Shown here piece after piece: positions 14,157 to 42,176 of a stretch of DNA of 64,000 nucleotides. The stretch is from a virus. Location of the stretch: positions 1-64,000 of IMG/VR virus record IMGVR_UViG_3300008266_000006. The stretch is one strand, 5' to 3'. The notes under the pieces are model-generated. The model was not told where the DNA came from. It was given only the letters and a program-made list of their open reading frames with translations, and ran no database searches. Position numbers and translations under genes: made by a program. Positions within the stretch are counted from its first letter, which is position 1; each line of letters starts with the position of its first letter.

Positions 14157-14615
14157 ATGTCTAGATTCTATTCTCGTTTTGTTGTTGATCCATATTTGGA
14201 TTACAATACAATTGATTATGTTGATGTATCTAAAAATGATATTTCTTTTTTAGCTGTAGCTACTAAACTTGCTGCAACATCTGACAACAGATTTCGTGTT
14301 GGAGCACTAGTCGTAAAATCTGGAAGAGTGTTTGGTGGTAGTGCTAATATTACTAAACGCTCACCAAGTACTCCTCCAAATAGATTTTCAACTCATGCAG
14401 AGATTGCAGCTTTAAAGGTAGCTTCAGAAACAGAAGACTCTACTTTGTATATTTCAAGGTTAAGTTCTTTAAACCTTCCAGCTTTAGCTAAACCATGCTC
14501 ATGGTGTATCCAGAAGATACTTGAAGCTGGAGTCAAACGTGTTGTCTATACTGTTGATAAAAACACATCTAAATATTTTTATACTTCCACTTTAAATTGG
14601 AGCAATTATGCGTAA
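14157..14615 (+). CDS. Cytidine/deoxycytidylate deaminase-like protein
   Basis: 152 aa. Zinc-dependent deaminase signature: HAEIAAL (His zinc ligand and catalytic Glu) near residue 81 and PCSWC near residue 117 (two Cys ligands). It would convert dCMP to dUMP or a related base, feeding dTTP synthesis; a role in nucleotide pools for AT-rich DNA is inferred. The allosteric region of phage dCMP deaminases is not evident, so CMP, tRNA or other substrates cannot be ruled out. It overlaps the protease gene by 8 nt. Confidence 0.75.
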   Translation: MSRFYSRFVVDPYLDYNTIDYVDVSKNDISFLAVATKLAATSDNRFRVGALVVKSGRVFGGSANITKRSPSTPPNRFSTHAEIAALKVASETEDSTLYISRLSSLNLPALAKPCSWCIQKILEAGVKRVVYTVDKNTSKYFYTSTLNWSNYA

Positions 14616-16068
14616 AAAATACCTAGCTATTATTGCGGTTAGTGCAATAGTTTTTTCTTTAATTTCGTACAAAGAAGTTTCTGCACGGTCTTCAACTTAC
14701 AATGATGTGGCTGCTGCTACAACTCCAGTAAAGTTTAGATTTACTTTAGATAAATCAGTCCCATACATTGGTGCAACAAAAGCCTATAACTTAGGCTATA
14801 CTGGCGCAGATCAGTATGTTGTTGTTATTGATACCGGTATAGAAACTGCACATCCATTTTTGCAAGGCAAGGTTGCTTTAGAAGCTTGCTTTGCTGATAA
14901 ATGCCCTAATGGTCAGACTTCAATGATTGGTCCAGGAGCTGCTCGTCCAGTCCACTGGCACGGCACTCACGTAGCAGGTATTGTTGCTGGAAGCAATTCT
15001 AACATGCGCGGAGTTGCTCCAGGTGCTAAGATCATTGCTGTAAACGTATTTGATGTTTACGGTGCTGCTTATGACGACGATATTATCAAGGCTTTAAATT
15101 GGGTTAATACAATATCTTCCCAATATAATATTGTTGCTGTCAACATGTCACTTGGTTCCAGTCAAGTTTTTAGAACTACATGTGATGGATATATTCCAGC
15201 AATGACAGATGCGATTAAAGCTCTTCGTGATAAAAAGATTGCTACAGTAATTTCATCAGGCAACTCATATGCTGTAGGCATGAGTGCTCCTGCATGCATT
15301 ACTTATTCTGTTTCTGTTGCAGCTACAATGTCTACCTCTGATACAGTAACAAACTTTTCAAATATCAGTGAATATACTACTCTTGCTGCTCCTGGAAATA
15401 TGATTAACTCATCATCTTTGATGGGTGCATATCGATATGCTTCAGGCACATCTATGGCTTCACCTCATGTGGCTGGAGCATTTGCAGTCTATACTTCAAA
15501 GTATGGAAAACAAGATGTTTCTAAAGTTATTTCTGATTTTGCAATGAACGCTCCAAAAGCTGTTGACTCTTATAGCGGCATTAAAATACCACGCTTATAT
15601 TTTGATGCTTTATTTAGTGACGGTACTCCAGTTGTTACTACAACAACTACTGTCCCTGTTGTCACTACCACTACACTTCCTGTAACTACTACAACAGTTG
15701 TTTCTCCAACTACAACTGTTCCAGTGACTACTACTGTTCCTAGTCCTACTACTACTTTACCAAAACCTCCTTTTCACCCTACAATGACAAAACCATTACT
15801 TTTGGATATGTATGGTGGCTTTAAAACTTTTGTCTATGTAAAATATCGAGTCCCCGTTGTTGGAAGAAACATTGTTTCTTATTACAATTTATATTGTGAT
15901 GGAAACAATAAATATGTAATTCCACATCAAACTCGATGGACAATTGATACCTATAAATTGGAAGTTCCAGCTTCTCAAATTAACTACTGTTACTTGACAG
16001 CTGTTTCAATTTATGGACAAGAATCATCTCCATCATCCTTTTCCTATATCTATCCTAGAAACAAGTGA
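14608..16068 (+). CDS. Secreted subtilisin-family serine protease with Thr-rich linker
   Basis: 486 aa. Signal peptide at residues 1-27 (MRKKYLAIIAVSAIVFSLI, then cleavage near VSA). The S8 peptidase domain spans about 60-310 with the complete triad: Asp75 in VIDTG, His118 in HGTHVAGI, Ser282 in GTSMASPH; the oxyanion Asn is likely in SSGNS. Then a linker of about 45 Thr/Val/Pro residues and a C-terminal domain of ~100 residues that may bind the cell surface or be fibronectin-like. Exported enzyme, unusual for a phage; it could modify host surface proteins or block superinfection. The linker style matches exported proteins of Acidimicrobiia-type hosts. Confidence 0.92.
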   Translation: MRKKYLAIIAVSAIVFSLISYKEVSARSSTYNDVAAATTPVKFRFTLDKSVPYIGATKAYNLGYTGADQYVVVIDTGIETAHPFLQGKVALEACFADKCPNGQTSMIGPGAARPVHWHGTHVAGIVAGSNSNMRGVAPGAKIIAVNVFDVYGAAYDDDIIKALNWVNTISSQYNIVAVNMSLGSSQVFRTTCDGYIPAMTDAIKALRDKKIATVISSGNSYAVGMSAPACITYSVSVAATMSTSDTVTNFSNISEYTTLAAPGNMINSSSLMGAYRYASGTSMASPHVAGAFAVYTSKYGKQDVSKVISDFAMNAPKAVDSYSGIKIPRLYFDALFSDGTPVVTTTTTVPVVTTTTLPVTTTTVVSPTTTVPVTTTVPSPTTTLPKPPFHPTMTKPLLLDMYGGFKTFVYVKYRVPVVGRNIVSYYNLYCDGNNKYVIPHQTRWTIDTYKLEVPASQINYCYLTAVSIYGQESSPSSFSYIYPRNK

Positions 16069-22409: not shown

Positions 22410-23045
22410 ATGTATAACGATTTTATGTCTAGCAATGACGATGACTTATTTAGTTCTGAGTCTTCTTCAAAAGAGTCACCTAAAAGTTCAGATGAGATTT
22501 TTAAAGACATTGAGAAAATGCTCAAAGATAAGCCATCTGATTTCTTTAATGAAGTAGAGATAACTTCTAGAATTGTAAACTCTTTTAATGATTCTGCGAA
22601 TCGATATATTTTTGCAACTGATTCTTATAATCGTTCTATATTTGACGAGCTAAACTCTATTACAAGTGGCAAATTCTCTTATCGGGTTTATGCCGATATT
22701 TTAGAAGAGTCACTTGCAAGAAGATTTATTGTATTTGATTTTCTTAAAATTTTAGCTAGCGCAAAAGATGAAAGACTATTAAAGTTTTTCACTCAAAAAA
22801 TGAAACTTAATATTGATTCTCGTTTTGTCAATACTTATGTGACATCTTTAATTGAAATGCTAAATTTTGCTATTGATTACAATATAGAAATTTATATTAA
22901 AGTATGTCAAAAAATTGACAGAACTCCACTGCAACCTATTATTGATAGAGATATTGATAACGTTGATTTAAATCTTTTAGATTCAGATCAATATATTAAT
23001 AAGTATTTTTCTGTTATTCGCACTGAGATAGGATTTGACTTTTAA
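22410..23045 (+). CDS. Hypothetical protein at the start of the ubiquitin-like gene region
   Basis: 211 aa (the ATG at 22425 is an alternative). Acidic, Ser-rich disordered N-terminus, then an all-helical body. No membrane segment or known motif. It is followed closely by whiB and the ubiquitin-like system genes, so it may belong to that operon. Confidence 0.7.
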   Translation: MYNDFMSSNDDDLFSSESSSKESPKSSDEIFKDIEKMLKDKPSDFFNEVEITSRIVNSFNDSANRYIFATDSYNRSIFDELNSITSGKFSYRVYADILEESLARRFIVFDFLKILASAKDERLLKFFTQKMKLNIDSRFVNTYVTSLIEMLNFAIDYNIEIYIKVCQKIDRTPLQPIIDRDIDNVDLNLLDSDQYINKYFSVIRTEIGFDF

Positions 23046-23046
23046 T

Positions 23047-23433
23047 ATGGCTTTAACTTCTAACAGTAATTTTTCTGATCATCAAACTCGAGTTATATTG
23101 CATATGTCTGATTGGCGTTCTGAGGCTAAATGTAAGTCTGTAGATACCCAATCTTTTTATGATACAGAAGAATCTGTTATGAAGAAGCAGGCTGCCAAGT
23201 ATTGCCCTAGCTGTCCTGTACAAAATCAGTGTTTGTATACTGCTATAGTCATTCATGAAAAGCATGGTGTCTGGGGTGGCTTAACCCCTAAGCAAAGAAA
23301 ATCTTTAATAAGAAATTTAAAACTTATTGCTCGTTCCAAAGGACTAGACTTAGACATTTGGAACAAAGATGTTGATAATCTTATTTTTCAACATACGAAC
23401 CTTCAAACGGCTTATAATATAATTAATAATTAG
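23047..23433 (+). CDS. whiB: WhiB-family iron-sulfur transcription factor
   Basis: 128 aa (an ATG at 23104 would give a shorter form). Four cluster ligands are in place: Cys29, Cys53, Cys56, Cys62 (C...CPSCPVQNQC), followed by the G(V/I)WGG turn (HGVWGGLTPKQRK) and basic residues. WhiB proteins bind a [4Fe-4S] cluster, respond to redox or NO, and contact the host primary sigma factor. This family is confined to actinobacteria and their phages and is the strongest host marker here. It could redirect host RNA polymerase to the operon that follows. Confidence 0.95.
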   Translation: MALTSNSNFSDHQTRVILHMSDWRSEAKCKSVDTQSFYDTEESVMKKQAAKYCPSCPVQNQCLYTAIVIHEKHGVWGGLTPKQRKSLIRNLKLIARSKGLDLDIWNKDVDNLIFQHTNLQTAYNIINN

Positions 23434-23444
23434 ATTGGAGTTTT

Positions 23445-23840
23445 ATGACTTCTTATCCAGAGAAGGTCCCCCAATCTGCGCCAATTAAAAACTTTTATTT
23501 CAGTTTAGACGCAGCTGCCGACTCTAAAACAGAGATTAAAAATCAAATTTCTATTTTAGAAGAACGGATAGAAAAAATCATTCAACATTTTACTGTTGAT
23601 GATATGCCAATTATCAGATTCATTTTAAATATGACTCATGATAAAGAGATTATAAAAGGTCTTTCTAAAGCCTTAGATAGAGCTTCAGATCTTGTTGAGC
23701 ATCTCGATAATCTTTCTTCAAAGTTGAAGGTCATCGAGCATGCTGAATCAGACCCTTCTTGGTTTGCTTATACTTTTGGTGATTTTTCTAGTTCTATTGA
23801 TAATGATTTAAAAGATATATTTGGAGATAACAATGGCTGA
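23445..23840 (+). CDS. Hypothetical helical protein
   Basis: 131 aa. Predicted coiled-coil/helical centre (KNQISILEERIEKIIQHF). It overlaps the next gene by 8 nt. No family is recognised; the position suggests a partner in the ubiquitin-like system. Confidence 0.65.
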   Translation: MTSYPEKVPQSAPIKNFYFSLDAAADSKTEIKNQISILEERIEKIIQHFTVDDMPIIRFILNMTHDKEIIKGLSKALDRASDLVEHLDNLSSKLKVIEHAESDPSWFAYTFGDFSSSIDNDLKDIFGDNNG

Positions 23841-25734
23841 TAGCTTTAATTACGCACTTACACTTAATGATAATGGTGTATATGTATTGCGTTCCACAGT
23901 AGAAAGTTTTAATTTACAGCAAGTTACTGATAAAGATATCATTTCTTTTTATCAAAACTTTTCTAACTCAGCTGTATTTGATACTGGTTTATTACCTTTA
24001 GATGGAACTGGTGTTTTGGCTATTCGTGCTGCAGGTAACCACATGCAGGTTACCGTTCAGCACAAGCCAGGTCTTTACTATATCAATTGGGGAGAATATG
24101 AAGGCCAATCCGGTGCTAAAACTTATACTTTAGCTCAGCCTTACCGAATTATTATAGGCGACTTTGTTGATGGTCAACTTCTTGGCGCTAGAATGTTTTA
24201 TTCTCCTTATCCAATTACCCATCCAGACATGCCTTTATACCATGTTAATCTTCCAAACATCAACTGCAAAGGTTACCGTGGCAATGGTGTAGGTTGGATA
24301 TGTTTATATCTAAAAGAAGATTGGTCAAATCTTCCTTTAAATGAAAAGATCTCTCGTTTTATTGAACGCTGTTCTGGTGTCGAAACATACAACGACGCTA
24401 ATATGAGTGAAACAGATGGTCCTCGTTTTTACCAACAAAAACTTGAAGATAATATGGATGAAGATCTTTCTTATCTTTGGAACCCTCAGAAATGGCAAGA
24501 CAAAAGTCTTAATGAGGGCTTTGATTGGACCTTAAATGAAAATCTTTGGATTCCGGTTAAAGTTCAATCTATTGACAATCAAAACAATCACGATGATAAC
24601 GGCATTCCTCTTACTTTATCAGGTGCTTTACTTGGTAATTATAGAGCTTATTATACTGACGATAATATCCCTAAGTTTTATAATGTTGTAGCTCGTGAAG
24701 ATCTTAATCTTTCAAATGAACAAGTTGCTAAGTTTGTTAAGAAGTCTTTTTCACAATCTGCTGCAATCTATAGCTATAATAATCTTTCCAATCCTTTGTC
24801 TTCTACTTTAAAATCTAGAGAAGATAAATCAAATTCTTCACCACAATTACCTTTTGAAGAAGATGAAAGTGAAGATGAATTATTTACTTGTGTTTCATGC
24901 GACAGTACCTATACTGAATCTGATATAACATATGATGTTAATGGTGAACCAGTATGTTCTAGTTGCATAACTGAACATTATGTTTATTTAGAGAGCTTAC
25001 AAGAATATTATCATACTAGTGATGATAATCTTTATTATGATGAAGCTAAATCAACCTATTATCACACGTCTTATGACACAGTAAAGATTTGTGATAATTG
25101 TGATACTGTTTACTGCGAGCAGGGTAATTCAGTAGCAGTTCCTGTTTATGATTTTGCAACTCCTAAAGGTGAGGTATTTCAATACTGCAACAGTTGTATT
25201 GAATCTGTTGCTAAAGATAACAATCTTACCGTTGTTTCTTGCAGTTGTGGTAGCACTAAACATATTTCTGAGTTTATAGAATATACCCTTTCAACCTTGT
25301 ACATTAAGAAGTTTCTTCTTCCTAAACTTATTTGGTCTACAAATTCTAATCCACAAACAGATGAACCAAGCCCTGTAAGTCATGAAGTTGCTTTTGAATA
25401 TACAGATACTACACTTATATATTGCCCTAAATGTGTAGATAAATCCACCATGCTTCACCAGACTTGTCCATGTGGATCTTTGGTTGATTCTTCTGATATT
25501 CTAAAATGCTCTTTAACACCAGTCACTGTTGGTGATTCTCAATATCAAGTTGCAGCTGCTTGTGCATCTTGCATTGGCAATATCAAGCCTACTGATAATG
25601 GATACCATATTGGAGAATATATTCCTAAAGTTTCTTATCAGCTAGATAAAGCTATTGAATCTGGAGTTATTTTAAATTCTCCTTATGTCGTTCCAGATTC
25701 TTTGGTTGACAAAGAAAACAATGAACCATTTTAA
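23833..25734 (+). CDS. E2-like (ubiquitin-conjugating-type) domain fused to multiple zinc ribbons
   Basis: 633 aa from ATG at 23833 (GGAGAT upstream). Residues ~95-180 read like an E2 core: YSPYPITHPDMPLYHVNLPN (compare YP..P...HPN), then GNGVGWICLYLKEDWSNLP (compare G.ICLDIL...WSP) with Cys157 in the active-cysteine position and His137/Asn139 before it. This also resembles the prokaryotic E2 family D of PRTRC protein B. From residue 353 to ~600 there are at least eight CxxC-type knuckles (CVSC, CSSC, CDNC, CNSC, CSC, CPKC, CPC, CASC), i.e. three or more treble-clef or RING-like zinc sites. Inference: a conjugating enzyme with built-in zinc adaptor, possibly combining E2 and E3 roles. JAMM, E1 and Ubl genes follow. 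Confidence 0.6.
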   Translation: MADSFNYALTLNDNGVYVLRSTVESFNLQQVTDKDIISFYQNFSNSAVFDTGLLPLDGTGVLAIRAAGNHMQVTVQHKPGLYYINWGEYEGQSGAKTYTLAQPYRIIIGDFVDGQLLGARMFYSPYPITHPDMPLYHVNLPNINCKGYRGNGVGWICLYLKEDWSNLPLNEKISRFIERCSGVETYNDANMSETDGPRFYQQKLEDNMDEDLSYLWNPQKWQDKSLNEGFDWTLNENLWIPVKVQSIDNQNNHDDNGIPLTLSGALLGNYRAYYTDDNIPKFYNVVAREDLNLSNEQVAKFVKKSFSQSAAIYSYNNLSNPLSSTLKSREDKSNSSPQLPFEEDESEDELFTCVSCDSTYTESDITYDVNGEPVCSSCITEHYVYLESLQEYYHTSDDNLYYDEAKSTYYHTSYDTVKICDNCDTVYCEQGNSVAVPVYDFATPKGEVFQYCNSCIESVAKDNNLTVVSCSCGSTKHISEFIEYTLSTLYIKKFLLPKLIWSTNSNPQTDEPSPVSHEVAFEYTDTTLIYCPKCVDKSTMLHQTCPCGSLVDSSDILKCSLTPVTVGDSQYQVAAACASCIGNIKPTDNGYHIGEYIPKVSYQLDKAIESGVILNSPYVVPDSLVDKENNEPF

Positions 25735-25773
25735 TTATACACAAAAACTAAACCTATTGGATATTGGAGTTTT

Positions 25774-27444
25774 ATGACTGACACAGTAGAAGTACAACCA
25801 CTAAAACTAGAAGATTTAAACTATTTTTGGACTACATCAGGTCTGCCATGTTTTTACGCAAACCGTGATAACATTGAAGATATAGTTGAATCTTTGGGTT
25901 TTAATATATATTATCTTATTTGCAATATTGCAGAAGATAAAAAAGTAACAACTTCCACCACAACTTACACAAATGGAGTTGCCACAACAAGTCCACAGTA
26001 TACAACAGAACTTACAACTGGTATTGTTAAAGTTGTTAATAATATTGTTGGTCGTTCTGTTTCAGCTGTTTCTGATGACATTTCTGAATTGACTCCAATT
26101 CGTGAATCTGGTGCATACCACATGCCAGCAATTCCAAGAATTATAGTTGATAAACTTGATGAGTTTTTCAGACTTGTTGATGCACAACACGGCACAGAAT
26201 CAATTGTATTACTAACTTTTGATCCATCAAAAGATGATTCATCTGGCTGGGGAGTTTTAGTTCCAGACCAGACAAATACTGCTGTGCATTGCAACTACAA
26301 TCCAGATTCTATTGTAGAAGAGAAGCCTGATAATGTTTTGATTGTCGGCTCAGTGCATTCACACCCTGGAATGGCTGCTTATGCATCAGGTACTGATCAT
26401 TCTGATCAAGCAGACTTTGATGGCTTACACATCACTTATGGCTGGCAAAAGACCGTAAATAATGGTGCTACTCAATATCATATTGAAATGCAGATGAGTG
26501 GAACTAGCTGGACATTAAAACCAGAGGATGTTTTTGAAACTTTTAGTATCAAAAAGGAACCGGATCCTGATGTCGTTGAATGGTCTGGTAAAGTAAAAAA
26601 AGCACTCCCCCCGCTGCAGTCGCAGGCGGGGGTTTATACAACAAGCCCAGCTACTCCGCCAGCACCTTATCGTCCAGCCCCTCAAACTACTCCTACTACG
26701 GGTCTTGGTACTCATAAGCAATCTAAGCCAGATATTAAAACAAATGGTAATTACATCTTAGTTGCGGAAATAGATCCAGCAGTAGAAAGTTTGCCATGCC
26801 CAAATTGTGATCATATCAATACTGCATATGATATGCAAGTTGGCTATTGCAAAGTTTGTGATATTCCTTTTGTTTCTGCTGGTGACACTATTGATGAAAT
26901 AATGATTCAAATTAAATGGTATTTGAATTGTCGTTACATCTCTGAAGATACAATTGTTTATCTTTGGTCAAAAGATCCAAGTATCAAAGAAGAAATAGTT
27001 ATGAATGTCGGTACTGTTAAATTCTTAAATGACACAGATACCGAATTTATATATACATCTAAAGAATCTGATAATAAAACTGTTTTAGATTATTCTGAAG
27101 ATAGTTTTTATGATTCAGATCTTGAGTCATTTGATCCAGATTTAACAGTTTGCTGTGGAACAAATATACTAAATGGGAATTGCACTTGTGAACTTCCAGT
27201 TTTATATGAGGACACTGTAGACTTTGAAGATGCTCACGATGGAAAAGATATCTATGATTGGACATCAAAATGTCTTGAATGTAAGTTTTATTCTGGCCCT
27301 GGTTGCAGAGACTATGTTGATGCAGTCATAGATTATGCCACTAATCGTAACTTACTTAAAACAACCATCAAAGAGTGTGATTCTTTTCAAAATTACAGAG
27401 ACTTTGATTCATATGCGGAAACAACTTACAGAGGATATTTATGA
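25774..27444 (+). CDS. JAMM/Prok-JAB metalloprotease (deubiquitinase-like) with zinc motifs
   Basis: 556 aa. A canonical JAMM zinc site, H-x-H-x7-S-x2-D, is complete: His195, His197, Ser205, Asp208 (GSVHSHPGMAAYASGTD). The assisting Glu should lie upstream but cannot be placed surely. Such proteases cleave ubiquitin-like proteins from targets or process their C-termini. A Pro-rich linker (about 280-310) leads to a zinc ribbon (CPNC at 342, CKVC at ~362) and a Cys-rich end (CCGTNILNGNCTC, CLECKF...GPGCRDY). It corresponds to PRTRC protein A by domain. The stop overlaps the E1 gene's ATG. A GC-rich hairpin sits inside the linker. Confidence 0.85.
   Translation: MTDTVEVQPLKLEDLNYFWTTSGLPCFYANRDNIEDIVESLGFNIYYLICNIAEDKKVTTSTTTYTNGVATTSPQYTTELTTGIVKVVNNIVGRSVSAVSDDISELTPIRESGAYHMPAIPRIIVDKLDEFFRLVDAQHGTESIVLLTFDPSKDDSSGWGVLVPDQTNTAVHCNYNPDSIVEEKPDNVLIVGSVHSHPGMAAYASGTDHSDQADFDGLHITYGWQKTVNNGATQYHIEMQMSGTSWTLKPEDVFETFSIKKEPDPDVVEWSGKVKKALPPLQSQAGVYTTSPATPPAPYRPAPQTTPTTGLGTHKQSKPDIKTNGNYILVAEIDPAVESLPCPNCDHINTAYDMQVGYCKVCDIPFVSAGDTIDEIMIQIKWYLNCRYISEDTIVYLWSKDPSIKEEIVMNVGTVKFLNDTDTEFIYTSKESDNKTVLDYSEDSFYDSDLESFDPDLTVCCGTNILNGNCTCELPVLYEDTVDFEDAHDGKDIYDWTSKCLECKFYSGPGCRDYVDAVIDYATNRNLLKTTIKECDSFQNYRDFDSYAETTYRGYL
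26607..26632 (+). other. GC-rich hairpin inside the JAMM gene
   Basis: CCCCCGCTGC pairs with GCA-G-GCGGGGG (one bulged G), then TTTATA. It encodes part of the Pro-rich linker. It stands out in AT-rich coding sequence and could attenuate transcription between the protease and E1 genes. Confidence 0.5.
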
Positions 27445-28196
27445 GCAACAACCCAAAAAGAGTTATAGTTGTAGGAGCAGGCGGCATAGGCACTTGGCTT
27501 TGTGCTGGCTTAGTCAGAATGCTTGAGTGGAAGTTTCCTGGTTCTGCACTTATCATCGTCGACGGTGATAATTATGAAGCCAAAAACTTAGAACGCCAAG
27601 ACTTTACGCAAATTGGCAATAAAGCTTCAGTTAAAGCTTTAGAACTTTCTAAGCAATTTTCAGAGACAAATATATTTCCATTGCCGAAATGGGTTGTTTC
27701 TGATAACTTTGAACAAGCTTCTGATGACAATAGTAATAAAATTAAAGCTTCAGATCTTATATCTGAAAACGATATAGTTATTGCCGTTGTTGATAACTTT
27801 GCTGCTAGAAAAGTATTGTTTGATGCAGCAAGTAAAATTGACAATGTTGATGTTTTTACTGGCGGCAATGATGACAATCTTTTCGGCTCTGTGTATCATT
27901 ATCAAAGACGAAATGGACACGATGTTACTGCTCATCCTGCAACAACACATGACGAGTATCTAAACCCACCAGATAGAAATCCTGGTGAATTGTCTTGTCA
28001 GGAAAGAGCAGAACTTGAAGGTGGCACTCAAGTATTAGCCACTAATATGGCAGTAGCTGCCTTCATTCTTGGTCGGATACAAAAAACCATTGTTTCCGAC
28101 CAAAGTCCTGAAGAAACTGAGATCTACTTTGATCTTGGTTTAGGAATGTCTCAGCCATACAACCGTATGGTTGAACAACAATTAATAACCACATAA
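27441..28196 (+). CDS. E1-like / ThiF-family ubiquitin-like-activating enzyme
   Basis: 251 aa. Rossmann ATP-binding loop VGAGGIGTWLCAG (residues 9-21) and the adenylation motif IIVDGDNYEAKNLERQDF (38-55), with the Asp and Arg/Gln typical of ThiF/MoeB/E1. The likely thioester Cys is Cys186 in ELSCQERAE, followed by the conserved ATNMAVAAFILGRI helix seen in PRTRC ThiF proteins. It would adenylate the C-terminus of the beta-grasp protein encoded next and pass it to an E2-like partner. GAGGAT upstream; ATG overlaps the JAMM gene's stop. Confidence 0.9.
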   Translation: MSNNPKRVIVVGAGGIGTWLCAGLVRMLEWKFPGSALIIVDGDNYEAKNLERQDFTQIGNKASVKALELSKQFSETNIFPLPKWVVSDNFEQASDDNSNKIKASDLISENDIVIAVVDNFAARKVLFDAASKIDNVDVFTGGNDDNLFGSVYHYQRRNGHDVTAHPATTHDEYLNPPDRNPGELSCQERAELEGGTQVLATNMAVAAFILGRIQKTIVSDQSPEETEIYFDLGLGMSQPYNRMVEQQLITT

Positions 28197-28213
28197 ACTT
28201 GGAGGATAATCCT

Positions 28214-28468
28214 ATGGAAAACCAAGCACAATCATCACAGCAGAACATACCTGCTGGTCAGCCAGCAAACGTCCGTTTCGGCGTTTACAGCCAGCCAGCA
28301 CCAGTTTCTGGAAAGACAGTTGGCGAAGTTCGTCAACAGTTTTCTAAAATCTGGGGTATTTCAAACGATGCAGTTGCATACAAGGGTAAAGACAAGCTTG
28401 ATGAGAATTATGTCATCCAGCCTGGTGACAACCTTGAATTTCACCGCCGTTCAGGCGAAAAGGGCTGA
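28214..28468 (+). CDS. Ubiquitin-like beta-grasp protein (PRTRC C / Prok_Ub-like)
   Basis: 84 aa. The ATG at 28214 is chosen for GGAGG 8 nt upstream. A disordered Gln/Ser N-terminus is followed by a beta-grasp pattern: strand RFGVYSQ, strand-turn, helix VGEVRQQFSKIW, strands AVAYKG and NYVIQPGDNLEFHRR. It ends SGEKG. The short tail ending in Gly resembles PRTRC protein C, which ends in a GxKG-type tail. Inference: the modifier protein activated by the neighbouring E1 and removed by the JAMM protease. Higher GC than its neighbours; a hairpin over its stop and a terminator follow. Confidence 0.8.
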   Translation: MENQAQSSQQNIPAGQPANVRFGVYSQPAPVSGKTVGEVRQQFSKIWGISNDAVAYKGKDKLDENYVIQPGDNLEFHRRSGEKG

Positions 28469-28529
28469 TTAGCCCTTTAAGATCGTGGGGGAGAGTGCTT
28501 TGATCGGGCACTTTCCCCCACATTTTTTC
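28460..28529 (+). terminator. Hairpin over stop codon plus Rho-independent terminator
   Basis: AAAGGGCT-gatt-AGCCCTTT overlaps the stop codon. Then GTGGGGGAGAGTGC ... GGCACTTTCCCCCAC followed by ATTTTTT (28484-28529). It ends the first part of the ubiquitin-like operon. Confidence 0.9.
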
Positions 28530-28564
28530 TAAAGGCTATACTTTATAATTATATTGGAGATATC

Positions 28565-30151
28565 ATGTTGTACCAACAAATGCAGTTGGGAGTTCCAGCT
28601 CTTTGGATCCAAACCAAAGATTTTATAAGAGTTTCTGAACTTGTATTAAAATTCAAGTCTAGAAACTATTACACAATCACAAACGGTGCCTTTTCATTAT
28701 ATGCTGACGGTAAATGGAAACCAATTCTAGTAAAACTTACAGATCCAAGTACTTCTGACACTATTGAAACAACAACTGATAATATTGCTGTCGCAATTGA
28801 TTATGTTGAAAATCAACCAAATAAATCATCTTCCACATTCATTATAAACTCTTTAGAAGACCCTAAGAAAACAGCTTCTGAAATATCTGGACTTATAAAC
28901 CATTTGTCTTCTATATATCGTTCTTCTTTTATGAGTGATGATATTTCCGCAATGCCATATCAAGTTATTATTCTTTCTCCACATGTATGTCCAGAAGAGT
29001 ATAGCTTTTTGTTTGTTAGCATTGAAGATACATATCCTTCATTTGAAGATCTCGTTGAAATTGTTACACATATGCATTCTTCAACTAATGGAGAAATTGT
29101 TGACATTACTAAAGCAAAAGAAATTGCGAAAGCAGGTTTGGGTTTAAATGAATTTTCTTTCATTAACTATTGTCTTTTGTCAGTTCTTAATACTGGCAAA
29201 GTTAATCCTGAGTATGTTTACAAATCTAAAATGGCTAATGTCAAAAAGAACGGCATCCTAGAGATTATTAAACCGAAAATTACATTTGATTCTATTGGTG
29301 GTCTTGATAATATCAAGCAAGTAATTGAACGCAATGTATTTTTCTGGCAAAACCCACAAGAAGCCGAACGTTATGGCATAACACCAATTAGAAGAATACT
29401 TACTGTGGGTGTTCCAGGTACTGGTAAGTCTGCAATTTGTGAGGCTACTGCCAACGCTTTAAATCTTGATCTTGCGAGAACTGGTGTTAGCCAAGTTATG
29501 AATTCTTTTGTTGGTCAATCAGAAGCAAACATGCGTGCAGTCTTTCAGCAAATTAAAGTAATGGCTCCACTTTGTGTATGGATTGACGAGTTTGGTCGTG
29601 ATCTTTCAGGTGGTGCTAGCTCTTCTCATGTAGATGGTGGCACCACAGATCGTGTTCACGGTGAATTCTTAACTGGCTTGCAAGAACTTCCAGATAATGT
29701 TTTCTTGATGTGTGCTGCAAATCAGCTTGATAATCTTCGTCCAGAAATGCTTCGTGCAGAGCGTTTCGACAAGATATTCTTTGTTGGATTGCCAGCTTTT
29801 GAAGAACGAATTTCTATTATTAAAATTTATCTTCCTGAAGGTGATTTTAATTATGAGATTATTGCTCGAGCTACAAAGTATTTTACTGGTGCAGAAATCA
29901 AATCTTTGATCAAGCATGTAAAATTTGATGTTGTGTCTACTTTCCGTAGACCAGTTACAACAGAGGATATTGTTTCTCGTGTTCCAACTATGAGAAATAT
30001 TCTTTGGAATAAAGATAAAGAAATGATTAAGAATTTGTATCGATTAGCTTATGACCAATGGGATTGGGCTTCTACTTTACAACTCAATGACATTGATGAT
30101 ATACTTGGTAATCGTGTACAAAACACTGATTCTTGGGAAGTTAAAATATAG
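28565..30151 (+). CDS. AAA+ ATPase, Ycf46-like
   Basis: 528 aa. The N-terminal ~235 residues follow the plan of Ycf46 proteins (VIILSPHVCPEEYS; GLGLNEF; KNGILEIIKPKITFDSIGGL). The AAA+ module has Walker A GVPGTGKS (Lys288), the pore-proximal segment SFVGQSEANMRAVF, Walker B VWIDEFG (Asp341, Glu342), sensor 1 CAAN and the arginine finger in MLRAERFDKIFF. Such ATPases remodel or unfold proteins. It starts 36 bp after the Ubl terminator. Inference: the unfoldase or segregase arm of the ubiquitin-like system. Confidence 0.85.
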   Translation: MLYQQMQLGVPALWIQTKDFIRVSELVLKFKSRNYYTITNGAFSLYADGKWKPILVKLTDPSTSDTIETTTDNIAVAIDYVENQPNKSSSTFIINSLEDPKKTASEISGLINHLSSIYRSSFMSDDISAMPYQVIILSPHVCPEEYSFLFVSIEDTYPSFEDLVEIVTHMHSSTNGEIVDITKAKEIAKAGLGLNEFSFINYCLLSVLNTGKVNPEYVYKSKMANVKKNGILEIIKPKITFDSIGGLDNIKQVIERNVFFWQNPQEAERYGITPIRRILTVGVPGTGKSAICEATANALNLDLARTGVSQVMNSFVGQSEANMRAVFQQIKVMAPLCVWIDEFGRDLSGGASSSHVDGGTTDRVHGEFLTGLQELPDNVFLMCAANQLDNLRPEMLRAERFDKIFFVGLPAFEERISIIKIYLPEGDFNYEIIARATKYFTGAEIKSLIKHVKFDVVSTFRRPVTTEDIVSRVPTMRNILWNKDKEMIKNLYRLAYDQWDWASTLQLNDIDDILGNRVQNTDSWEVKI

Positions 30152-30162
30152 AAAGGACAACT

Positions 30163-30783
30163 ATGTCTTCATTTGATAATTCTGTCGAAGAGTTTTTAGA
30201 GAACTTAACACAGGATCCATCTCAGACTGAAAAGAAAGAATATGATGCTCCACTTTATAAGAAGTGGTTTCGTTCTAAGACGCAAAGCGGCTTTCTTTCA
30301 ATTCGTCCATGGTTTGTTGGTATGAAGTTTAATATTGATATCGGCAAGACATCAGCAGATGGAAAGTTGGAAAGTAGCACTTCTTGTTTTGTTGATGCAG
30401 TTGACTTTGCTGCCTATTTAAAATCTGTAGTTAATGGCACTGCTTCTATCAACTACCCAGCAAATGAACGCACAGGAACAACAACTCCTGAGGGCTTTGT
30501 TTCTTATGGTGGAGCTATTATTAATAATCAACCAGTTAGTAGAATATTAAAGATTCAATACTGGACTTCTAACGATGCTTTTGACACTACTGCTTTTATT
30601 TGGAAGTCTGGTCATTTTAAAGCTCGTAAGTCTGATAGCGGTGCTTTTATTCCAGATATGAAATCACCTATTTCAGTTGATTCTATCAAAGTTTCTCGTC
30701 AAGAAATGGTTGGCATTTCTTATTTACTTGATCTTTGCTTGCAATCACATGTTACAAACAATGTAGATTGGTATGATGTATGA
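30163..30783 (+). CDS. Hypothetical protein linked to the AAA+ gene
   Basis: 206 aa. AAAGGA upstream. Acidic N-terminus, then a beta-rich body with Trp/Tyr/Phe (SGFLSIRPWFVGMKFNIDIG). No family is recognised. ATGA-coupled to the next gene. Confidence 0.7.
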   Translation: MSSFDNSVEEFLENLTQDPSQTEKKEYDAPLYKKWFRSKTQSGFLSIRPWFVGMKFNIDIGKTSADGKLESSTSCFVDAVDFAAYLKSVVNGTASINYPANERTGTTTPEGFVSYGGAIINNQPVSRILKIQYWTSNDAFDTTAFIWKSGHFKARKSDSGAFIPDMKSPISVDSIKVSRQEMVGISYLLDLCLQSHVTNNVDWYDV

Positions 30784-31169
30784 GCGAAGATATAAGTTCT
30801 ATTTTAGGTCCCAAAGATGAAGTAAGTCTTCTTCGTGAACACGTTGAAGAACTTATACTAGCTTTAGCAAATAAATTTGAATCTCGTTTGCAAGACTCTG
30901 AAACTCATATAGAAATGCTAGAAAAGCAACTTGCTCAGATGATCGTCGGTTATGGCGAACAAGCAGTATTTATGGAAGCTTTAATTGCTCAAATAAACTT
31001 TGCTTCTCCTGAAGCTCAAAAAGCGTTTACTGCAAACGTTTCTGAGAATCGTAGAAAAATGTTTCAAGCTATGAAAGAAGGCGCACCTGGAATCCTGGGC
31101 CCAGAAAACGAAGACCTTGCCTCAGCCATTACAAACTTGGCTGATCAAAAGTTATCTGACTCCAACTAA
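30780..31169 (+). CDS. Coiled-coil hypothetical protein
   Basis: 129 aa. Residues ~12-50 form a heptad-patterned helix (LLREHVEELILALANKFESR). Contains two ILGP repeats near the ends. Start overlaps the previous stop. The function is unknown. Confidence 0.65.
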   Translation: MSEDISSILGPKDEVSLLREHVEELILALANKFESRLQDSETHIEMLEKQLAQMIVGYGEQAVFMEALIAQINFASPEAQKAFTANVSENRRKMFQAMKEGAPGILGPENEDLASAITNLADQKLSDSN

Positions 31170-32653: not shown

Positions 32654-33994
32654 ATGGAAAATATAAGCCATATTAGTAAGTCAATGCACACGCTTATGGT
32701 TGATCCTTTTATGTTCAATTTAAATTGTTTTACTAAAACTTTATCTAGTAATTCAATAAATGATAACACTTACACTTACAATTTTCAGCTATATCCTGCT
32801 GACAAAACTTTTCTTCATAAATCCTATTCTTCTTTTGAGTATTCAAGTTCTTTAAACTCAAATAATGTTGATCTGCTTCCGATGGCTGTTAGGTATGCTG
32901 ATATTAAAAATAAAATTTATGTTATAGAACGACCACCTTTTCAAACTGATATAGATTTTTATCCTAATAAAAAAGTAAACGCTCGATTAGCAAATCATAT
33001 ACCAAATAAAAAAATTTGGATACCTTGGACTGTTTTTGTTGTTTCTTTAGGAGATTCTCCTGAAGAACTTAACGCAATGCTTTTCTTTAATGATAAGCCT
33101 TTAGAGTCATTTGATGACCGTGTTATTAAAGGTTATACTCCAAATTTGTTTGGTGACGCTAGAGTTTGTTTCGGTAATTCTTTGTTTACATTTAAACAAC
33201 GTATTGATCAAGGCGATATAAAATATAATATTTCAAACGTATATAATTATTTATTTAATGATTATTTTACCCAGTGGAATCCTGATATATCTCCAAACTA
33301 TTACTCTCTTTTTTATAATTATTTTAATCAAAACAAATTTATTGAAAGAGTTTTATCTTTAAAAAAATATCCTAAAGGAATTGAAGATTTTTCTTCATGG
33401 AATGCTCGTTCGGCTTCTACACCATGGATATATGTACTTTTCTTACTCAGTACAATGACCTATGAAGAAACAATGAGTCTTGTTTCTTATTTTAAGACTA
33501 CAGTTTTTCAAACTCACCATGTTAGGTATGTTGCTCTTTCTGAAATCATAACCCTTCGTATGCAAAAAAATTGTACTTTTAATTTTCAAGACAACAATTT
33601 TGATTTTAGTGAACGAGATTTCATTGGTCATTATTCTAACTATATGAGCGCTTTTAAGCATGCTATCCAACCATCCCATCGAAGTAAGAAAATTGACGTA
33701 CCTGTTATCGTTGCTTTTAAAGACTTTCCTGAAGATACAAACAAGTCAATTATAATCTCAGAAGATACTTACGCATACATTTATTCTTTTATTTTTGATA
33801 AGATAAATGAGGCTCTAAATGAATTGTCAAACACCCCAACATTAGAGCACGTTATCTTCAATAGCTCTGATGATTTTTATCATTTTTATTCTCGTTTTAC
33901 TAATTTTTTCTCCTATGGTTCTATTCACATAACCATTAATTATAATGATTATATGAATTTTATAGCTCAACCTTTAGAAGGTGTTTATGTCTAA
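32654..33994 (+). CDS. Possible E2-like protein, first of a pair
   Basis: 446 aa. The middle part IPWTVFVVSLGD ... AMLFFNDKPLESFDD ... GYTPNLFGDARVCFG (Cys172) follows the 'PW.VF...; RP/PL.S; PN.....G.VC.G' pattern I associate with prokaryotic E2 family D (PRTRC protein B). The paralogue at 33987 shares this arrangement. The rest is helical and unknown. Inference: a non-canonical conjugating enzyme or an inactive scaffold. Alternative: an unrelated phage protein family. ATG with weak upstream AGG. Overlaps the next gene by 8 nt. Confidence 0.5.
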   Translation: MENISHISKSMHTLMVDPFMFNLNCFTKTLSSNSINDNTYTYNFQLYPADKTFLHKSYSSFEYSSSLNSNNVDLLPMAVRYADIKNKIYVIERPPFQTDIDFYPNKKVNARLANHIPNKKIWIPWTVFVVSLGDSPEELNAMLFFNDKPLESFDDRVIKGYTPNLFGDARVCFGNSLFTFKQRIDQGDIKYNISNVYNYLFNDYFTQWNPDISPNYYSLFYNYFNQNKFIERVLSLKKYPKGIEDFSSWNARSASTPWIYVLFLLSTMTYEETMSLVSYFKTTVFQTHHVRYVALSEIITLRMQKNCTFNFQDNNFDFSERDFIGHYSNYMSAFKHAIQPSHRSKKIDVPVIVAFKDFPEDTNKSIIISEDTYAYIYSFIFDKINEALNELSNTPTLEHVIFNSSDDFYHFYSRFTNFFSYGSIHITINYNDYMNFIAQPLEGVYV

Positions 33995-35348
33995 AATAAT
34001 TCAAACTATTTTGTCTAAGAATTATATATCTGATTTGTCTCCCAAACTTGCAGAAGGATTAGGAAAGAAAGTAAAATCTAGAAATCCTCTTATTAATCCT
34101 CTTATTAATTTAGGAGAAAAAAAAGCTTATTTTGAACATTACACAAGCCATATTGAACCAAGTGCTGTTCAAAGCAGTTTTTCTACTTATGAAGATTATA
34201 TTATTGATTCAAATTATTATTTAAGTATGGCTACAAATAATTCTGCTTATTACGCAGATAAGAATTTTCATAACATTCAAGACCATTGGAAAAAGTTATT
34301 TAAAATTCCTTTTGATATTAATGTTGGTGAAGATAAAGACGAACAAATTTCTAATTCAATAATTTTTCCTGGTGTTCGTCACATTGAAAGCAACATGATC
34401 ATATTTGAAATGCCGCCAGCTTATCGTCATGTTTCTTACCAGCATGCTTATAGGGATAATGCTAGCGGCACATCTTACAGGAAATATTATATTCCTGTTC
34501 CTTGGCAAGTGTATGTAGCTACATTTTCAAATGATATGAAATTAGTTGATGTTCAAATGTATTTTTCTAAAACATCTCTTTATTCGATGGATCAAAAACT
34601 ATATTCTCCACCGCTTTTAAACTTTTATGGCAGTGGTCTTTTATGTCGTCCATTCTTTGAATCTTTAGAAGATGTTGAAAAATATCCAAAAACCATATCA
34701 GGAATTATTTCTTCTGCTTTTGATTGGGTTTGGAACACTGGTTTTAATTGGGATATAACAGAGCCAATTTCACAGTACTTACATTCAAGATTTTATGAAT
34801 CAATGCAGCCTTTTGTTGATCGTAAAACTTATGAATCTTTAGTTCCATATTTTCACGGCTCTGCTCCACACACAAATGCTCAAGTTCATAGCGTTGATGC
34901 TATGTTTACACTTTGGCAAAATGTACCATTAGAAAATGTTCTTGATCTTGACTGGATTGCATTTTGTATATATTCTGATTTCTATTATCAATCAATAGAG
35001 CTTTATTTGAGTAATCATTTTTCTCAAGATTTTAACCAATATATTGAAGATAATAATATTGATTTAATTTCTGAAGATGAAGTAGAAGATGAAGAACAAG
35101 CCGAGTCTAGAGAGCACGATATTCAGTCAATACTTCAGTCTACTCAATTCCATTCATTTATGGCTCCTAAGTTAAATAATTTTAATTCTACTTTAAAACA
35201 CGCTTATGATATTGCTGATCGTAGACTTCATTCTTATAGGTTAAAACCAACAAATAATTATTCTTTTTTTACTAAAAAATCTTATCAAACTGACGCTTTT
35301 ACTAAACACCTTGACGCTAAAATATTAGAGATTACTTCTTCAGTTTGA
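33987..35348 (+). CDS. Possible E2-like protein, second of a pair
   Basis: 453 aa. The ATG at 33987 is chosen over GTG at 33981 because GAAGG is 5 nt upstream. IPVPWQVYVATFSND ... LYSMDQKLYSPPLLNFYGSG then LLC (Cys220) parallels the pattern in the preceding protein (PW, PPL.N, small residues, Cys). Acidic segment at about residues 360-385 (SEDEVEDEEQAES). Likely a paralogue or partner of the 32654 product. End of the operon; a new promoter follows. Confidence 0.5.
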   Translation: MSKIIQTILSKNYISDLSPKLAEGLGKKVKSRNPLINPLINLGEKKAYFEHYTSHIEPSAVQSSFSTYEDYIIDSNYYLSMATNNSAYYADKNFHNIQDHWKKLFKIPFDINVGEDKDEQISNSIIFPGVRHIESNMIIFEMPPAYRHVSYQHAYRDNASGTSYRKYYIPVPWQVYVATFSNDMKLVDVQMYFSKTSLYSMDQKLYSPPLLNFYGSGLLCRPFFESLEDVEKYPKTISGIISSAFDWVWNTGFNWDITEPISQYLHSRFYESMQPFVDRKTYESLVPYFHGSAPHTNAQVHSVDAMFTLWQNVPLENVLDLDWIAFCIYSDFYYQSIELYLSNHFSQDFNQYIEDNNIDLISEDEVEDEEQAESREHDIQSILQSTQFHSFMAPKLNNFNSTLKHAYDIADRRLHSYRLKPTNNYSFFTKKSYQTDAFTKHLDAKILEITSSV

Positions 35349-38739: not shown

Positions 38740-39348
38740 ATGACTACGATAGTTGCTATTCAAGGGGACGGTTTTGCCCTTATTTGTTCTGATTCTCGTA
38801 TATCAGACATGGATGGTGATGGCTATGCTTCTCAGGTCAGCACTTTGAGAGAAGGCACTTCTAAGGTTGCTTCTAACGGAAAATACCTTCTTGGTGCTGC
38901 TGGAGATCTTAGAGCTATAAACTTACTGCATCATGCTTTTGTTCCTCCTCCAGCTCCTGCTGGAATAAAAGGAAAGAAGTTAGATCAGTTCTTTACTGTT
39001 AAGTTTATTCCGGCATTAAGAGAATGCTTTGAAGCACATGGCTATGCCACGCCTGATAAAGATGAAAAACGTCATATGGCAGAACATGAATCAATTGTTA
39101 TAGCTTCTATATCTGGCCAAATTTATATAGTTGACGGTGATTACTCTTGGCTTTCAGATACTTCTGGTGTCTATGCCCTTGGTAGTGGGTCTTCTTATGC
39201 CCTCGGTGCTCTTACTGCTTTGCTTCCTAAAGCTCCAATAACAGTCCAAGTAGCTAAGAAGATTGCCCTTAAAGCTATGAGCATTGCCGCTAGATTTGAT
39301 TCTTATACAGGAGCCCCATTTCATACTTTTGTACAAGAGCAGAAATAG
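38740..39348 (+). CDS. Proteasome beta / HslV-like threonine hydrolase
   Basis: 202 aa. Ntn-hydrolase of the 20S/HslV type: Met removal would expose Thr as residue 1 (TTIVAIQGDG). The catalytic Asp17 equivalent is present (ICSDSR), and Lys42 in TSKVASNGKYLLGAAGD probably serves as Lys33 after a short insertion. The GxxGD turn and the YALGSGSSYALGAL motif (conserved Gly-Ser-Gly-Ser near the active site) are clear. No propeptide, as in HslV. Would form a barrel-shaped peptidase fed by an AAA+ unfoldase. Inference: the proteolytic end of the ubiquitin-like system at 23.8-30 kb, 8.6 kb from the AAA+ gene, or an independent anti-host protease. Confidence 0.88.
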   Translation: MTTIVAIQGDGFALICSDSRISDMDGDGYASQVSTLREGTSKVASNGKYLLGAAGDLRAINLLHHAFVPPPAPAGIKGKKLDQFFTVKFIPALRECFEAHGYATPDKDEKRHMAEHESIVIASISGQIYIVDGDYSWLSDTSGVYALGSGSSYALGALTALLPKAPITVQVAKKIALKAMSIAARFDSYTGAPFHTFVQEQK

Positions 39349-40565: not shown

Positions 40566-41339
40566 ATGAAAATTAATCATTTAGGTAATGGAATTGTCGT
40601 ATTTGAAGATTTATTATCAAAAGACGAACTTAATGAAATTAATTTGGCTTCAATTGAAAAAAGTATTGAACCTCAAGGTTATAAAAAAGTAGAAGAAAAA
40701 ACTTTTATGGAAGGTGGTCACCACATCCCTGAAGAAGATGTTCCTACAATGCCAGTAAGATACATTAAAGATATTCAATCTTTACCTTTTGTTCAAAACA
40801 TAAACCACGCTATGCATCGAGCTGCAGTTGAATATTGTAAGTTATTTCCTGTAGCAGCAGAGTGCATCACAGACTATAGCGGCATGCATTTTGTTAAGTA
40901 TTTACCCAAAGGAGTTATGGGCCCTCATTCTGATGTTGCTTTAGGCTATAAGCCAAACAGTGTTGAGGCTACATCTACAGTAGCTATAGGAAATACTTTA
41001 ACTGCGTCATTATTATTAAACGATGAATTCACTGGTGGTGGTATTTATTTCAATAACTGGGATATAGAAGTCCATCCAAAGGCTGGTTCAGCTTTATTTT
41101 ATCCTTCTAATTATATTGGTGCCCATGAGGTGCGTCAAATAACTTCTGGATTTCGTTGGATATATTTGGCTTTTTATTCTCATGGTGATCGTACTTACGT
41201 CAGTACAAATTCAAATAATCATTACGCACAGCGTTATGAATGGACAAATAATTTTAGAGATCAAATACGTAAAAAGTTTTCTACAAAACAAGAAAATTTA
41301 AATCATCTACAAAAAAAAGTAGAAAATGGTTATCAATAG
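40566..41339 (+). CDS. 2-oxoglutarate/Fe(II)-dependent oxygenase (prolyl-4-hydroxylase-like)
   Basis: 257 aa. Double-stranded beta-helix with metal ligands HSD (PHSDVALG), His in GAHEV and 2-oxoglutarate Arg in SGFRWIYL; TGGGIYFNNWDIEVHPKAGSALFYP is typical of P4H-type phage oxygenases. It would hydroxylate a protein or small substrate. Flanked by the 24-bp direct repeats and driven by its own promoter, so it looks like an independent insert. Confidence 0.85.
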   Translation: MKINHLGNGIVVFEDLLSKDELNEINLASIEKSIEPQGYKKVEEKTFMEGGHHIPEEDVPTMPVRYIKDIQSLPFVQNINHAMHRAAVEYCKLFPVAAECITDYSGMHFVKYLPKGVMGPHSDVALGYKPNSVEATSTVAIGNTLTASLLLNDEFTGGGIYFNNWDIEVHPKAGSALFYPSNYIGAHEVRQITSGFRWIYLAFYSHGDRTYVSTNSNNHYAQRYEWTNNFRDQIRKKFSTKQENLNHLQKKVENGYQ

Positions 41340-41361
41340 TTTTTTATTTTAGAACCTAAAA
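41338..41361 (+). repeat. 24-bp direct repeat, right copy
   Basis: Identical to 40511-40534; begins inside the stop codon of the oxygenase gene. Confidence 0.7.
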
Positions 41362-41368
41362 CTAGTTT

Positions 41369-41782
41369 TTAACTAAAAAAACCACTAAATGGATTTAGTG
41401 AAGGCCTTCTTTGTGCTGCTTCATAAGCTGCCATTCCCTGTGAAGTAACTCCACCCCCAGCAGCTGGGTTAACAAGCGCCCCTGTGCTTGTTGGTGATGC
41501 TATAGGCAACGCTGTAAGAGATCTGCCGGAACTTCTCGGTGTGCCTCTAGAAATAGCTCTGCCAGTAGAAGCTGCCCTTCTAGACATTCTCCCAGTTCCT
41601 TCTAAAGCCTGTCCGGCAAAACCTACCCCTGATGTAGCAGCTCGTGCTAAATTGCGTTTACCAAGACCCTTAACAGCTAGACTGCCAGCTCCAAATAAAG
41701 AAGCTCCAGCCAAGGCATAACCTCCAGCTGCTCCCATAATATCGCCCTGTTGCTGATTATAAGCACCGGTATCCTGCAGCAC
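41369..41782 (-). CDS. Gly/Ala-rich protein, downstream part (possible frameshift)
   Basis: 137 codons from a GTG. Gly/Ala/Ser/Arg-rich with hydrophobic glycine-zipper stretches (GAAGGYALAGASLFGAG) and a disordered Pro/Ser end. Its start overlaps the end of the next-listed ORF by 26 nt in the +1 frame, and removing one C at a CCGG (about 41767) would join them as GAAGYGAYNQQQ. It lies among rightward genes. Possibly a virion or membrane-active protein. Confidence 0.55.
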   Translation of the reverse strand: MLQDTGAYNQQQGDIMGAAGGYALAGASLFGAGSLAVKGLGKRNLARAATSGVGFAGQALEGTGRMSRRAASTGRAISRGTPRSSGRSLTALPIASPTSTGALVNPAAGGGVTSQGMAAYEAAQRRPSLNPFSGFFS

Positions 41783-42083
41783 CGACCCCTACCACACCAG
41801 CCATTTTTGCTCCTGCAAATCTTCTTGATGCCTGCCCAGAAAGTTTTCCTGAAGCTCTTGCTGTTTCTCTTGCGACACGTTCAAAAGCTCTTGCTGTTGC
41901 ATGCTTTGAAATTCCACGTTTACCTAGAGCCAAAGAACCAACACCTAGTGCTGTTCCCACACCCATGGTACCCATGCCAGCATTTGTGTAACCAGCACCA
42001 GTTGCCTTATAGCCGGCATAGCCTATGCCAGCTCCTGCTGCAACGCCCATTGCTGCTTTTGATCCAATGCTAAAATAACCCAT
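41757..42083 (-). CDS. Gly/Ala-rich protein, upstream part (possible frameshift)
   Basis: 108 codons; AAGGAAA upstream on this strand. Glycine-zipper segments (GVAAGAGIGYAGYKATGAGY; GTALGVGSLALGKR) and a basic helix. GVGSLALGKRGISKHATARA resembles GAGSLAVKGLGKRNLARAA in the downstream part, so the joined protein would carry an internal duplication. Confidence 0.55.
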   Translation of the reverse strand: MGYFSIGSKAAMGVAAGAGIGYAGYKATGAGYTNAGMGTMGVGTALGVGSLALGKRGISKHATARAFERVARETARASGKLSGQASRRFAGAKMAGVVGVGAAGYRCL

Positions 42084-42151
42084 ATTTTTCCTTTAATAGA
42101 TATAACTATAGTACTTTTTTTTGTGATTTTACACACAAATGCTTCTAACTG

Positions 42152-42160
42152 TGCTATACT
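42152..42160 (+). promoter_or_regulatory. Extended -10 promoter
   Basis: TGCTATACT 16 nt before the ATG at 42177, in the divergent region between 42083 and 42177. Confidence 0.45.
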
Positions 42161-42176
42161 TTTCCTACGAAGTCAG

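Follow-up and report, generated by a model that had tools for sequence, protein, structure and literature searches.

Does a virus carry a ubiquitin-like protein (Ubl) conjugation system of its own, and what would it gain from one? The question is raised by a gene cassette of a large freshwater virus of bacteria, in IMG/VR record IMGVR_UViG_3300008266_000006, a 171,197-base viral record of 36.6% G+C, of which positions 1 to 64,000 constitute the window analysed here (64,000 nt), the rest of the record having been searched with single families only. An initial annotation of the window had noted, in a row, an E2-like protein with a zinc-type tail (hereafter E2z), a JAMM protease, an E1, a Ubl and an AAA+ ATPase, and the positions of all five genes have been borne out. 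Sequence comparison suggests, with a probability that we put at roughly three in four, that the virus runs its own Ubl conjugation and deconjugation of the PRTRC/Prok-E2_D type, a reading based on a fixed gene order, profile homology with negative controls, the predicted Ubl fold and invariant cysteine residues. The features described below from p131 to the HslV-like gene lie on the + strand.

Two scans of IMG/VR for relatives gave 13 and 42 loci, on contigs partly shared between the scans, and as the same gene order recurs in about 40 contigs, the cassette is not a chance assemblage; the order p131-E2z-JAB-E1-Ubl-AAA-p206-p129 is kept in every sufficiently long contig. Among viral members L060 diverges most (E1 identity 54%); all genes are kept there, but JAB is split and three genes have been inserted after Ubl, ahead of AAA. 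Mean pairwise identity is highest for E1 (74%) and Ubl (67%) and lowest for two further proteins discussed below, p446 (23%) and p455 (27%). A soda-lake contig assigned to a metagenome-assembled genome of Ectothiorhodospiraceae (L069, E1 61%), which carries p131, E2z, split JAB, E1 and Ubl followed by an HNH-like gene, is probably a misbinned viral contig.

Activating enzyme, Ubl and JAMM protease

The E1/ThiF-like Ubl-activating enzyme (251 aa, 27441..28196) matches Pfam ThiF at 5.7e-15 and aligns by hhalign with the ThiF-type E1s of PRTRC at 99.7% (2e-25, 227 columns). It has the nucleotide-binding motif GAGGIG, and the Cys186 that had been proposed as its thioester residue (codon 27996..27998) is the sole cysteine invariant among E1 relatives, aligned with the invariant cysteine of the PRTRC-type E1s. 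The ThiF and MoeB models are matched as well, and the PRTRC_ThiF model of NCBIfam is hit below threshold (1.2e-8; score 34.5, cut-off 144.75). The E1 would adenylate the C-terminal glycine of the Ubl and then carry the Ubl on Cys186.

The Ubl (84 aa, 28214..28468) ends in FHRRSGEKG. Its AlphaFold model has the bb-a-bbb topology of a beta-grasp fold (predicted local distance difference test, pLDDT, 79.5), and Foldseek aligns the model with ubiquitin-family structures at probability 1.0 and a template modelling (TM) score of about 0.55-0.64, so that the beta-grasp-like protein ending in EKG suspected from the sequence is predicted as such by the model too. FHR(R/K)xGEKG is present in every Ubl and GEKG is invariant in all orthologues, the conserved glycine being followed in four of them by two further residues (SL in L042 and L044, NI in L049, SK in L069), therefore a processing peptidase is needed. 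The end motif F-x-R-x-A-G-x-K-G is common to this Ubl and the PRTRC-type Ubls. Neither the Ubl nor E2z is recognised as such by any profile library scanned, Pfam, NCBIfam and PADLOC among them.

Such a peptidase is offered by the JAMM/JAB metalloprotease (556 aa with a Cys-rich C-terminal extension, 25774..27444), the gene of which overlaps E1 by 4 nt. It is found by Pfam Prok-JAB above cut-off (1.2e-5), by hhalign against the PRTRC A-type JABs (97.3%, 2.5e-11) and, below threshold, by PRTRC_A of NCBIfam (0.0095; score 15.5, cut-off 101.8). The predicted JAMM site of His195, His197, Ser205 and Asp208 holds: the motif H195-S-H197-x7-S205-x2-D208, HSHPGMAAYASGTDHSD (26356..26397), is conserved in 9/9 sequences. 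An archaeal JAMM trims its ubiquitin precursor (PMC6043591), and since four orthologous Ubls likewise extend past GEKG, the viral JAMM would trim Ubl precursors and, besides, strip the Ubl from its targets.

Three E2-like proteins

E2z (633 aa, 23833..25734) combines an N-terminal Prok-E2_D-like domain with a Cys-rich zinc-type tail. Its active-site-like segment LPNINCKGYRGNGVGWICLY (residues 140-159, 24250..24309) contains the candidate Cys157 (codon 24301-24303), which is invariant in 28/28 relatives, and the surrounding LPN-x-NC...GWxCLY is kept in all 28. Residues 39-143 align with the combined Prok-E2_D superfamily (hhalign 97.0%, 8.4e-11), and the Cys loop then follows; an E2-like domain is thus suggested by profile in the region, residues 95-180, in which the initial annotation had expected one. 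The alignment stops at the LPN motif, short of Cys157, as the loop of E2z is longer there. In hhalign controls, nine unrelated profiles and one reversed profile all stayed below 1%. The combined profile was built here from the hits themselves, and the 97.0% therefore hangs on the assignment of p446 and p455; set directly against eight known Prok-E2_D proteins, E2z aligns weakly (8.3%, 0.0041), and its link to them is significant only via these two proteins. Pfam scans of E2z members gave no E2 family. The N-terminal domain is modelled with confidence (pLDDT 86.5, predicted TM score 0.84), and among viral models (BFVD) its matches are a phage protein of 61% identity and two uncharacterised proteins (3.7e-9 and 3.9e-6).

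Both p446 and p455 were missed by the initial annotation. They were found as two tandem downstream families when a hidden Markov model of known Prok-E2_D proteins was run against 3,325 open reading frames (ORFs), and they are fast-evolving. The second E2-like protein, p446 (32654..33994; Prok-E2_D hhalign 92.9%, 3.6e-7), has Cys172 (codon 33167-33169) in PNLFGDARVC, invariant in 22/22, and the third, its paralogue p455 (33981..35348; 96.4%, 1.2e-9), has an equally invariant Cys222 (codon 34644-34646) in NFYGSGLLC, so that each has one invariant cysteine, placed after an Asn-containing motif. By hhalign p446 and p455 match each other at 99.5%, and p455 matches E2z at 94.1% (1.2e-7). Pfam Prok-E2_D appears below threshold in 8/24 p455 members; single-sequence Pfam scores for p446, p455 and E2z are under cut-off or absent, and membership is by profile (92.9-97.0%). 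These three divergent proteins, each with an invariant candidate thioester cysteine, would accept the Ubl from E1, with target specificity possibly set by the fast-evolving p446 and p455.

The zinc-type tail of E2z (residues 353-580, 24889..25572) would serve as an E3-like adaptor. Six strict CxxC motifs were counted in the tail of the window protein, where eight knuckles had been announced, and most relatives have 4-8, with none in the ORFs of L010, L011, L047, L048 and L051. The tail is absent in L051, and the other four have a short but complete E2, after which a Cys-rich stretch comes in a different frame, lacking an ordinary start codon. In L047 (6200-7180) this module stands out of frame directly after the short E2 (CCTTTTTAG), which may be due to a frameshift, an assembly slip or a rearrangement. 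Sub-threshold IBR/RING matches were seen for L069.

AAA+ ATPase, HslV-like peptidase and the question of degradation

Whether tagging by the Ubl would lead to degradation depends on two further genes. The AAA+ ATPase (528 aa, 28565..30151; Pfam AAA 8.5e-24) had been described as Ycf46-like; the AAA+ assignment stands, and its nearest models in NCBIfam are instead CDC48 (2.2e-31) and the proteasome-activating nucleotidase, PAN (5.7e-30). Walker A, Walker B, the arginine finger and the aromatic pore loop, SFVGQSE in the window protein, are present in 9/9, and by pore loop and arginine finger its sequence is that of a CDC48/PAN-type unfoldase. Rhizobium phage RHph_I4 has a relative of it near DUF1257 and DUF2997 genes (L020 8181-8891).

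A Pfam Proteasome search of 17 viral records revealed in addition an HslV/proteasome-like N-terminal nucleophile (Ntn) peptidase (202 aa, 38740..39348), which begins with MTTIV. It scores above the Pfam cut-off (1.7e-7), and among PDB entries it hits HslV (1.5e-5) as well as BPH (6e-5). In 13 HslV-like sequences Met1-Thr-Thr, Asp18 and Lys42 of the ORF are invariant, becoming Thr1, Asp17 and Lys41 (Lys33-equivalent) after removal of the methionine, and by Pfam cut-off and this predicted triad the peptidase is a member of the HslV/proteasome family. Its gene is present in 19/31 records, 9-11 kb downstream of AAA+ where both were located. A search for ClpP found none, and an HslU partner was sought by AAA_2, without a match in the virus's own record, which is incomplete. 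Relatives have an AAA_2 ATPase in their structural-gene region, but as it is ClpA/B-like it was not accepted as HslU; in two cassette-bearing relatives, L089 and L090, some 9 kb separate a ClpA/B-type single-ring ATPase from the terminase gene. Stand-alone HslV-like peptidases occur in phages DSL-LC01 (48%) and Pumpernickel (32%).

With these genes, the AAA+ might pull apart Ubl-tagged host or viral proteins and, in lineages that have one, the HslV-like peptidase might degrade what has been unfolded, the outcome for the virus being an infected cell, probably actinobacterial, that would be remodelled or in which the virus would be defended. Several observations weigh against so complete a picture, some of them already against its core. 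The conserved loop of E2z carries a second invariant cysteine, Cys145, although Cys157 is favoured as the catalytic residue by its position, comparable to G-x-I-C-L of E2 enzymes. The model of E2z has no solved-structure match (Foldseek against the PDB), so that its fold rests on profiles, and the Ubl aligns with the PRTRC C-type/Prok_Ub profile at 16% (0.0016) and by its C-terminal motif only. As for the outer steps, a strong terminator-like hairpin with a T-run (28485..28521, 16-bp stem) stands between Ubl and AAA+, so that the latter is probably on a separate transcript. Relatives of the AAA+ are spread over 86 GenBank phage records, and no AAA+ of the cassette kind is present in the three E1-bearing records checked (ME3, D69 and MT835919). 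The HslV-like gene is absent from six cassette-bearing records (G010, G011, G012, G015, G019 and G025), and HslV-like proteins stand alone in other phages, with HslV-like genes in 13 GenBank phage records. The gene was not found in G024 either, a contig that ends near the cassette.

Hairpins similar to that after Ubl stand in the same position in most relatives, the T-run not in all; the outer arms, GTGGGGGAG...CTCCCCCAC, recur in many of them and the inner stem varies.

The best-surviving alternative, which we regard as possible but clearly less likely than not, is that the cassette truly conjugates the Ubl, though to regulate or assemble proteins and not to degrade them, AAA+ and the HslV-like peptidase being functionally unrelated neighbours. 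The terminator fits this, and so does the finding that other phages have both genes separately from Ubl genes, as does Vibrio phage D69, which has Ubl, E2, JAB and E1 and no AAA+ or HslV-like relative; against it, AAA+ adjoins Ubl in all complete viral loci, with the three inserted genes of L060 as sole exception. A whole degradation route, in which Ubl, E1, three E2s with the zinc module, JAMM, AAA+ and the HslV-like peptidase together destroy chosen proteins, appears rather unlikely. Because of the terminator and of AAA+ and HslV-like genes elsewhere in phages, a pathway joining these two proteins to the Ubl is offered only as a hypothesis. The expanded system with a zinc-adaptor E2 and an unfoldase that had been proposed from the sequence is hence real as a cassette and larger than thought, by p446, p455 and the HslV-like gene, and in view of the terminator its coupling to AAA+ is unproven.

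Relation to known systems

The likeness to the plasmid PRTRC cassettes (ThiF, A, B, C) that had been noted is supported, by profile in the case of E1 (2e-25), JAMM (2.5e-11) and the E2 domain (8.4e-11), and by modelled fold and end motif in that of the Ubl. JAB adjoins E1 in both, and PRTRC C, ending in AGAKG-AHA, likewise has residues past the glycine. In the virus cassette, by contrast, E2 is fused to a zinc tail and joined by two additional E2s, and genes for an AAA+ and an HslV-like protein lie close by. No match to ParB, protein E or protein F was obtained for any of the ten genes scanned in the block, and the remainder of the record was not searched for these. As E1 and JAMM miss the PRTRC equivalog cut-offs by far, E2z and Ubl have no model match and ParB, E and F were not seen nearby, the cassette is not a PRTRC member.

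Relatives of the E1 are found in six GenBank phage records, namely Vibrio phages D69, D181 and D148, MT835919, and ME3 (twice). D69 (OZ195729) and MT835919, a 15.8-kb fragment, share a phage-borne E1, JAB and Prok-E2_D with the present virus. Near these lies, in D69, the gene (L016 4385-5176) of a Ubl-like protein made of three repeats, each with GTKG at its end, which suggests a polyubiquitin-like precursor. Sets of the D69 type differ by tandem Ubl repeats, by the single E2 seen and by the lack, in either record, of an AAA+ or HslV-like relative; a scan with the E1 of MT835919 gave no relatives. With D69 encoding Ubl-like, E2_D, JAB and E1 proteins, phage-borne PRTRC-like sets are already in public data, and it is the expanded architecture that is new. 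In the literature searched, mostly without subscription journals and preprints, we found no description of phage PRTRC-like sets, nor a paper that shows the function of the long-annotated PRTRC-type Ubl genes. A distant E2, JAB and E1 set was seen in a 188-kb virus (L071 5748-8606; E1 33% to L060).

The Firmicute plasmid Cytobacillus pN497-ZHONG has Ubl repeats ending in AGTKG, Prok-E2_D, JAB and E1 in that order, differing in its double Ubl, single E2 and location on a plasmid. The ubiquitin operon of Caldiarchaeum follows the same E1-E2-Ubl-JAMM logic, and its ubiquitin is matched by the viral Ubl model, but it is cellular and archaeal, with E3 proteins and an Rpn11-type JAMM, and its E2 is, to our knowledge, of a type other than Prok-E2_D. 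The HslV-like peptidase shares the Thr1-Asp17-Lys Ntn hydrolase signature and the above-cut-off Pfam Proteasome match with HslV and BPH, and differs from HslV in that no HslU was found with it.

Bil, Bub and type II CBASS are also bacterial E1/E2/JAB cascades, with other architectures and an immune or putatively immune role in the host. Since bacterial immune systems employ such enzymes (PMC10097602, PMC13373217), the cassette might serve mainly as a counter-defence that removes, hijacks or competes with host Ubl immunity, JAMM being the key component, and the fast evolution of p446 and p455 would fit an arms race. This is unlikely, as deconjugation alone needs no complete E1-E2-Ubl set and the virus has its own highly conserved Ubl; moreover PADLOC matched no model beyond generic E1 and AAA domains, and none of the E1-E2 proteins or operon architectures specific to Bil, CBASS or Bub. 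Least probable is that E1 and Ubl are a sulfur carrier system, comparable to ThiF-ThiS and MoeB-MoaD, that thiolates tRNA, nucleotides or a cofactor with the E2-like proteins as thiol-transfer enzymes, for although E1 matches the ThiF and MoeB models and the window has eight tRNA genes, classical pathways have neither three E2-like proteins nor a JAMM with E2s, the CxxC zinc pairs of MoeB/ThiF are missing from E1, which has a single invariant cysteine, and the genes scanned showed neither a rhodanese nor a cofactor gene.

With Ubl conjugation as the preferred reading, many environmental viruses, a large group, have preserved an expanded PRTRC-type set in full, with three E2-like proteins and with genes for an unfoldase and a peptidase close by. 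As a compact model it lends itself to such questions as whether degradation is coupled to Ubl tagging beyond cellular organisms as well, by what course E2 families expand, and what benefit the tagging of proteins in a bacterium brings to a virus.

Neighbouring genes and host

The cassette is framed by conserved proteins. Upstream, p131 (131 aa, 23445..23840) overlaps the start of E2z and is syntenic in nearly all related loci; after AAA+ follow the likewise syntenic p206 (30163..30783, mean pairwise identity about 66%) and p129 (30780..31169). No family match to p206 was obtained in Pfam, NCBIfam or the other profile libraries scanned, and the idea that it is a partner of AAA+ in other phages was rejected, as it is not conserved beside AAA+ there. 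None of p241, p202, p131, p206, p129 and p211 matches E2, JAB, Ubl or AAA profiles, and a promoter scan was not clearly above shuffled sequence. A virus record of 267,766 bases, IMGVR_UViG_3300042868_009074, holds two differing whole cassettes (L031 and L052) and two HslV-like genes, and represents either two joined viruses or a real duplication.

Adjoining the cassette is a WhiB-like gene (23035-23433), a putative WhiB by its sequence pattern. As WhiB is an actinophage indicator among phages of freshwater Actinobacteriota (PMC10202952), the host is likely actinobacterial. Further genes of the window, at 14608-16068, 40566-43088 and 48739-49944, encode a subtilase, two 2OG-Fe(II)/TauD-type oxygenases and an acyl-CoA dehydrogenase, which are unusual phage auxiliaries.

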